From NCBI GenBank assembly GCA_013139625.1, contig WTAK01000320.1, positions 1 through 12,320 on the forward strand: a stretch of DNA of 12,320 nucleotides, read 5' to 3'. The notes under the pieces were generated by a model. That model did not search any database. It saw only the letters and a list, made by a program, of their open reading frames with translations, and was not told the DNA's origin. A program made the translations under genes and the position numbers. Origin of the DNA: Candidatus Delongbacteria bacterium (GTDB lineage Bacteria; UBA4055). This document shows, one piece after another, positions 8,411 to 9,415 of this stretch (the first letter of the stretch is position 1; each line of letters begins with the position of its first letter).

Positions 8411-9415
8411 CTATTGTTCTAAGTTTAACTTATTCATGAGCTTCTTTAATAATTTTTTTGTCACCCGTGCAGTATGAACTATTTTGGGTAGATTAATTAT
8501 AAGAATTGAAAGAGTTTTATTCAACTCTGAAATTCTTATTTTTTTCAGTTTATTATTTTCTATAAGTAATATAATAATAAAATATGCTTCCATAAAGCTT
8601 TTAAATGTAAGAAATTCTATTTTTAATAGTTTCTTCATTTTTTGTTGTAAGCTATTTAACTCACTATTACTAATAGGATATCTTTCTGTTTCTTCCTGTA
8701 ATAGCTTTAAAAAATGATCGAAGTTATTAACAATATCCTTTTCTGATATAGTTAATGAATCTTTGTTCATTATTATTATCATATCATCAAGATTACTTCC
8801 AAAGCCAAAATATTTTTTGTATGAATATCCATTTTGAGATAATGAAGAAATGATATCAGGAAGCTTATTCTTTATCCTAAGGCTTGGTAAAGTTAAAGTT
8901 GAGAAACATTTAATACCAGTTCCATAATACTCTAAAGATGAGGTTAGATACCTGTTATTTTCATCTTTTGCAAAAGATTTATCATCGAACAATCCAACAA
9001 ACTTCCTCAATTGATTGTATGCCTTTTTGACCGAAGCTCCTTGGGCATATGAATAAAAAGTTAAATGATCTTTATAATTCAATAACAAAAAAACTTTTCC
9101 TGTTTTATATGCATATAAAGTCAATTTCTTTAACTCAGATATCCTCATATTCGGTAAAATCCTAACTTTTTGCATCATTGCCAACTCTGAAATTGAAAGC
9201 TGTTGTAAATTAATTCTAAAAATAGTTTCATCCAATAGAGATTCTGATAATATATCATCGACCAATTTGACAACCGAAGTAGGATTAAATTGTTTCTTGT
9301 TCGCAGGAAAAATTATACTATTAAAATTTCGTACACATTTAACTGATGAATATATTGCAATTGAGTTATCATTACCTTTCATCCAAAAAGGAATATAGTT
9401 TTCATTAATGTTCAT
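8411..9415 (-). CDS. McsB-like protein-arginine kinase homolog, predicted catalytically inactive
   Basis: The 334 residues align in register with McsB, which phosphorylates arginines on proteins to mark them for ClpCP. Shared landmarks: FWMK at 10-13, the SDIV-type strand then VRNF and FP at 28-37, N-x-x-DH at 113-117, YLT-x6-GTG at 156-167 followed by LPSL-x10-I, the Y/F-G-x-GS loop at 203-207, and LTISEKDIVNNF at 221-232. The active site is eroded: the SSRIR arginines are Ser24 and Lys26, both Glu of NEEDH are Tyr114 and Lys115, the catalytic-site Cys of TSCPTN is Ser160 and its Asn is Tyr163, LRAS is IKCF, and GEGSEA has Phe205 and Asn208. The C-terminal arginine-binding part is replaced by a Lys-rich helix. 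No mcsA, clpC or ctsR is nearby. It is an intact reading frame with an AGG ribosome site, 12 bases after lipA, so it appears to be a maintained pseudokinase, not a decaying gene. Confidence 0.75.
   Translation of the reverse strand: MNINENYIPFWMKGNDNSIAIYSSVKCVRNFNSIIFPANKKQFNPTSVVKLVDDILSESLLDETIFRINLQQLSISELAMMQKVRILPNMRISELKKLTLYAYKTGKVFLLLNYKDHLTFYSYAQGASVKKAYNQLRKFVGLFDDKSFAKDENNRYLTSSLEYYGTGIKCFSTLTLPSLRIKNKLPDIISSLSQNGYSYKKYFGFGSNLDDMIIIMNKDSLTISEKDIVNNFDHFLKLLQEETERYPISNSELNSLQQKMKKLLKIEFLTFKSFMEAYFIIILLIENNKLKKIRISELNKTLSILIINLPKIVHTARVTKKLLKKLMNKLNLEQ

Follow-up and report, generated by a model that had tools for sequence, protein, structure and literature searches.

The McsB homologue and its active site

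The window examined here is the whole stretch of 12,320 nucleotides at positions 1 to 12,320 of contig WTAK01000320.1 (assembly GCA_013139625.1) from Candidatus Delongbacteria. It carries on its reverse strand a gene for a homologue of McsB, the enzyme that marks damaged proteins with phosphate on arginine. The counterparts of the McsB catalytic residues are replaced in this protein, hereafter pseudo-McsB. The gene and its altered sites are listed below; McsB residue numbers are those of Bacillus subtilis.

8411-9415, reverse strand: pseudo-mcsB, McsB homologue with the catalytic residues gone; 334 amino acids, full length, intact open reading frame (ORF)
9338-9346, reverse strand: Ser-Val-Lys, codons 24-26; counterpart of R29 and R31 in the McsB motif SSRIRLARN
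9065-9079, reverse strand: NYKDH, codons 113-117; counterpart of NEEDH, with N, D and H retained and the two glutamates gone
8936-8938, reverse strand: Ser, codon 160; counterpart of the catalytic Cys167
8909-8911, reverse strand: Lys, codon 169; counterpart of R176, Lys in 13/13 genomes
8801-8803, reverse strand: Phe, codon 205; near the Glu of GEGSE, in 13/13 genomes, the loop alignment being less certain

Pseudo-McsB matches PF00217 with 64.4 bits (Pfam gathering cut-off 22.4), and its closest solved relatives are McsB; the best score against the NCBIfam McsB equivalog profile, 81.1 bits, falls far short of the cut-off of 385. An AlphaFold model, with the fold also compared by structure alignment, predicts that the McsB fold spans the whole protein, including both the phosphotransferase and the dimerisation domains. 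This model is not independent of sequence homology, since 22 intact McsB rows are present in its alignment. A different fold was ruled out by the full-length homology together with the predicted fold. An earlier note, made from the sequence alone, had described an intact gene with the McsB fold kept, and both statements are borne out. Its assignments of Ser24/Lys26 to R29/R31, Tyr114/Lys115 to E121/E122, Ser160 to C167 and Lys169 to R176 hold, as does its placement of Phe205/Asn208 at the GEGSE site, where Phe205 is less certain because the loop differs in length by two residues. The ribosome site that it proposed is weak, consisting of a lone AGG in TTTAGGTATAAAATG, 12 bases past the stop codon of the lipA-like gene.

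The same losses recur throughout a phylum sample of 13 Candidatus Delongbacteria genomes representing seven genera, as the earlier note had suggested checking. The positions of R29, E121, E122, R125, C167 and R176 are altered in 13/13; R86 is Arg in 1/13 and R207 in 2/13; the R31 position holds Arg in nine genomes and Lys in four; and R34 (Arg29 of pseudo-McsB) is retained in all. In the same alignment, some rows of which carry in-frame residues upstream of the start codon, R29, R31, R86, E121, E122, R125, C167, R176 and R207 are present in 22/22 intact McsB rows. E212, for which Phe205 is the likelier counterpart in an uncertain alignment column, was left out of the Delongbacteria counts. The C-terminal phosphoarginine pocket, R337-D-x-x-R341-A, is lost too: the R337 position is non-Arg in 17/17 rows with a residue there, and only the rows of genomes G004 and G007 retain the D together with the second R.

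The replacements are themselves conserved. Tyr114 stands in place of E121 in 12/13 genomes, Lys169 and Tyr or Phe163 are found in 13/13, and Ser172, Asn113, His117 and Arg29 are invariant; judged from the alignment, these residues look like a remodelled pocket. In B. subtilis, R29K, R31K, R34K, R125K, R176K, R207K and R337K each kill McsB activity in vitro (PMC7235348; here and below, papers are cited for the portions available). Since R176K abolishes activity there, the Lys at this position should by itself suffice for inactivity. These comparisons support the view that pseudo-McsB is a catalytically dead form of McsB, present in every Delongbacteria genome examined, as well as the proposal of the earlier note that the protein cannot phosphorylate arginine in the known way. 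Having lost the catalytic residues of McsB, it is therefore named here an McsB-like pseudokinase and not McsB.

Each genome encodes a single PF00217 protein, always pseudo-McsB (13/13; 9/9 among genomes at least 90% complete), and a PF00217 search of all 13, for the second mcsB that the earlier note had asked after, found no other or intact McsB. The dN/dS ratio (Nei-Gojobori) is 0.081 against an 86%-identical orthologue and 0.097 against a 66%-identical one, silent sites in the latter comparison being near or beyond saturation; six neighbouring genes give 0.02 to 0.22 in the comparison with the genome of the 86% orthologue. The reading frame is open in 13/13, with two copies truncated by a contig end. 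Pseudo-mcsB is under purifying selection, and the retention of a dead McsB fold suggests that the scaffold is useful in itself. Identity between genera is 26-42%, a divergence far quicker than that of enolase. A single decayed copy was ruled out by the 13/13 orthologues, the dN/dS ratios and the gene order.

McsA, ClpC and the phosphoarginine circuit

The earlier note was correct, as far as the window reaches, in seeing none of mcsA, clpC and ctsR near pseudo-mcsB; other contigs from this genome do carry mcsA and clpC. In 12/13 genomes another contig encodes a McsA-like protein in which four CxxC motifs are combined with a UVR region; none was found in G009 (86% complete). A protein of the ClpC type, which has Walker A and Walker B motifs, two of each, together with an IGF loop, the usual dock for ClpP, is likewise encoded on other contigs in 12/13; G002 (79% complete) gave a ClpB-like match alone, and no ClpC-type protein was seen there. 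McsA and ClpC occur together in 11 of the 13 genomes. In the genome of the window, mcsA (L085:6461-6994(+)) immediately follows two ABC-transporter genes that resemble lolC-lolD, and clpC is not adjacent.

CtsR (PF05848) was found in 0/13 Delongbacteria genomes, in a search whose control matched 1/14 well-known genomes. PF01451 matches are present in 13/13; 14 of the 15 loci were read, and all possess arsenate-reductase-like P-loops (CI/VHNSARS or CTGNSCRS). No YwlE-like phosphatase was found among these 14, the YwlE P-loop signature being what we take to separate YwlE from ArsC-like forms. In G004 an ArsC-like gene with the low-molecular-weight phosphatase fold lies closely after clpC (L135, G004:C92; L087).

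In Staphylococcus aureus ClpC, T7, E32 and E106 are phosphoarginine-site residues that have been tested, and K85 is a resting-state residue (PMC12583610). The N-terminal domains of the Delongbacteria ClpC proteins (L086, L131-L141) were read alongside controls from 10 of 12 other genomes with intact or partly intact McsB. In the Delongbacteria proteins R83, which we assign to phosphoarginine site 2, is replaced by Glu in 12/12, K85 by Asp or Gln in 12/12 and T7 by Ser in 12/12; the E32 position (site 1) is Gly or Thr in 10/12, with Glu left in the other two, G004 and G007, and R9 and E106 (site 2) are retained in 12/12. The controls keep E32 and E106 in 10/10 and have Lys or Arg for K85 in 10/10; R83 is Arg in 6/10 and Glu in one (G024). 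Because G004 and G007 are without the kinase residues yet retain E32, the pattern suggests that kinase loss came first. On this evidence writer and repressor appear to be gone, the eraser is apparently gone as well, and the ClpC reader seems partly altered.

Gene neighbourhood and possible functions

Four further genes of the window surround pseudo-mcsB.

7738-8367, reverse strand: cvpA-like membrane protein gene, PF02674; directly 3′ of pseudo-mcsB in 10/10 loci where the contig continues
6403-7737, reverse strand: enolase gene (eno), a sequence-based name; after cvpA in the same 10/10 loci, with a TTG start from the ORF list
9428-10135, reverse strand: lipA-like radical SAM gene; directly 5′ of pseudo-mcsB in 11/13 loci
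10305-12320, reverse strand: histidine kinase gene that also encodes a receiver domain; two genes 5′ of pseudo-mcsB in 11/13 loci, its own 5′ end lying beyond the window

The order pseudo-mcsB-cvpA-eno is found at 10/10 readable loci, the other three contigs stopping there. The domains of the histidine kinase were read on its homologue in L080. Upstream of pseudo-mcsB, G004 carries thioesterase-like and HlyD-like genes instead, relatives of which occur in G007. The lipA ORF encodes 235 amino acids in the window and in L074, compared with 287-304 in nine other loci; the N-terminal part of the window gene, 9428-10135(-), is seemingly missing or in another frame.

The likeliest single reading, which we hold with some reserve, is that the phosphoarginine circuit has eroded and that pseudo-McsB together with McsA forms a phosphate-independent Clp partner. 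An ancestor would have abandoned arginine phosphorylation as a circuit while retaining the McsB scaffold, and the old active site would have turned into a conserved pocket lined by Tyr114, Tyr163, Lys169, Arg29, Asn113 and His117. Pseudo-McsB would be held by the McsA zinc finger and would bind substrates or a Clp ATPase, and contact alone, without phosphate, would feed or activate the protease. We infer the loss of the circuit with the scaffold kept and, with the least certainty, the contact-only step; an adaptor function is plausible. The McsA zinc finger is reported to touch the McsB loop beside the catalytic cysteine (PMC12467219), and the ClpC N-domain to be bound by McsA/McsB (PMC12583610). 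In B. subtilis, the half-life of MgsR is 12.3 min in the kinase-inactive C167S mutant and 17.7 min in the deletion, a difference that its authors read as a kinase-independent adaptor function of McsB (PMC7235348).

Several points weigh against this explanation. The authors of the MgsR study suspect ClpX as the partner, loss of clpC having no effect on MgsR (PMC7235348), and activation of ClpC by McsB reportedly requires kinase activity (PMC5506225). Mycobacterium smegmatis is reported to have arginine phosphorylation although no McsB is known there (PMC9604228), and an inactive McsB is therefore no proof that the mark is absent. In the loci read, the neighbours that pseudo-mcsB keeps are lipA, cvpA and eno, with no linkage to mcsA or clpC, and the tie to ClpC is therefore one of co-occurrence; even this is incomplete, as McsA was not found in G009 nor a ClpC-type protein in G002, leaving both in 11/13. 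Loss of the reader is partial, as R9 and E106 persist in 12/12 and E32 in G004 and G007, R83 varies among the controls and K85 is a resting-state residue, and the ClpC changes could reflect altered regulation of ClpC. Pseudo-McsB may still bind nucleotide, given Arg at the R31 position in 9/13 and at R207 in 2/13. The ClpX detail and the partial change in ClpC lower the probability of the adaptor explanation, and of the recurring class proposed further below, and raise that of the one tied to the gene neighbourhood.

The latter, the main rival though a doubtful one, states that pseudo-McsB has left protein quality control for a ligand-binding or regulatory role, for example as a metabolite sensor, serving lipA, cvpA and eno. 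The constancy of the cvpA and eno order (10/10 readable loci) and of lipA (11/13), the missing linkage to clpC or mcsA and the conservation of the new pocket residues would all be consistent with such a role. However, McsA is retained in 12/13 genomes, and to our knowledge its sole known role is with McsB and ClpC; the McsB dimerisation domain is retained as well, and housekeeping genes often cluster without a common function.

It is unlikely that pseudo-McsB has remained a kinase whose active site was rebuilt and whose substrate or mechanism has changed. The fold is intact overall, the site holds conserved charged or polar residues (Arg29, Lys169, His117 and Asn113), and the R31 position is Arg in 9/13, whereas in 13/13 the two glutamates of NEEDH, C167 and three arginines (R29, R125 and R176) are altered, and an R-to-K change at R29, R125 or R176 abolishes the activity of B. 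subtilis McsB (PMC7235348). Nor was a YwlE-like eraser seen among the PF01451 loci read. Decay toward loss, which the rapid divergence (26-42% identity between genera, far above the rate of enolase) might suggest, is very improbable and already contradicted by the frame open in 13/13 (two cut by a contig end), the dN/dS of 0.08-0.10, the invariant residues and the conserved gene order.

Related systems and degenerate McsB elsewhere

Pseudo-McsB shares with McsB (6tv6, 6fh1, 8gqd) the full-length two-domain fold and the co-occurrence of McsA and ClpC, and differs in lacking the catalytic residues in 13/13 and the RDxxRA motif, and in the position of its gene beside lipA, cvpA and eno. The arginine and creatine (phosphagen) kinases match it only over residues ~14-247; unlike them, it possesses the McsB dimerisation domain and has lost the catalytic residues. 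Bacterial Ser/Thr pseudokinases have a different protein-kinase fold from that of McsB. They resemble pseudo-McsB in that a kinase fold outlives catalysis (PMC12599244), and in the available portion of that paper McsB is named in the reference list only. No report of a non-catalytic McsB, in Delongbacteria and Chlamydia or elsewhere, was found by keyword searches of open-licence papers.

A wider sample of 386 genomes has PF00217 in 147, of which 12 are Delongbacteria. Proteins from 94 of the other 135 were read, including all scoring below 160 bits, and three were dropped for gaps. Among the remaining 91, in which the rows L198 and L206 are uncertain, 61 retain 9-10 of ten active-site residues, 11 retain 5-8 and 19 retain four or fewer. 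As the 41 unread genomes all scored at least 165 bits, degenerate McsB may be put at ~19/135. A search with ten of the degenerate proteins returned 23 proteins, of which three retain 9-10 residues and 20 (one partial) retain 0-3.

Seven Chlamydia-named proteins, among them those of C. trachomatis, C. felis, C. psittaci, C. pecorum and C. ibidis, retain 0-1 of the ten residues, and some are annotated as arginine kinases. Chlamydia McsB with a lost active site is seen in P0135, P0138, P0142, P0144, P0145, P0148 and P0149 and in L185 and L189. Like pseudo-McsB, chlamydial McsB is without the catalytic glutamates, the Cys and R125, and McsA and ClpC are present in Chlamydia (PMC10128030, PMC11708050); it differs in having replacement residues of its own (N-L/F-x-D-H), with mcsA and mcsB in one operon. 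The C. trachomatis gene is CT675 in PMC11708050, which regards chlamydial McsB as a kinase and in which McsB phosphorylation is proposed to act in development; the available text of PMC10128030 leaves the activity open. Chlamydial ClpCP breaks down casein phosphorylated on arginine in vitro (PMC10128030), and its reader therefore works.

Phylogenetic analysis places the Delongbacteria pseudo-McsB proteins in one clade (support 100/100). A 40-row tree unites all degenerate rows (92/90, not starred), two further groupings not being rejected (approximately unbiased test, AU, p 0.528 and 0.523), and an 81-row quick tree has at least three changes of catalytic state; long branches make both trees unreliable. 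One old branch of degenerate McsB and several separate losses are both compatible with these trees, which leave the choice undecided.

It is possible, and proposed here tentatively, that pseudo-McsB represents a recurring class in which the McsA-McsB-ClpC system has been rebuilt without McsB phosphorylation in Delongbacteria, and perhaps in Chlamydia and other lineages too, the former kinase serving as a binding adaptor. If so, several annotated arginine kinases would be pseudokinases, and annotations as "protein arginine kinase" made by homology can be wrong, Chlamydia included. Whether McsB has a role beyond its kinase activity is an open question, the two being hard to separate in B. subtilis (PMC5506225). 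Delongbacteria, with an apparently eroded circuit in which McsA, pseudo-McsB and ClpC are kept, would offer a natural separation of the kinase from any other role.

Further degenerate McsB proteins from many families (L172, L175, L179-L181, L186, L187, L192-L196, L199, L200 and L203) are each the sole PF00217 match of their genome. An intermediate state is seen in L182 and L183 (G029, G176), which have LEDDH and a Ser for the catalytic Cys and retain 6-7 of the ten residues.
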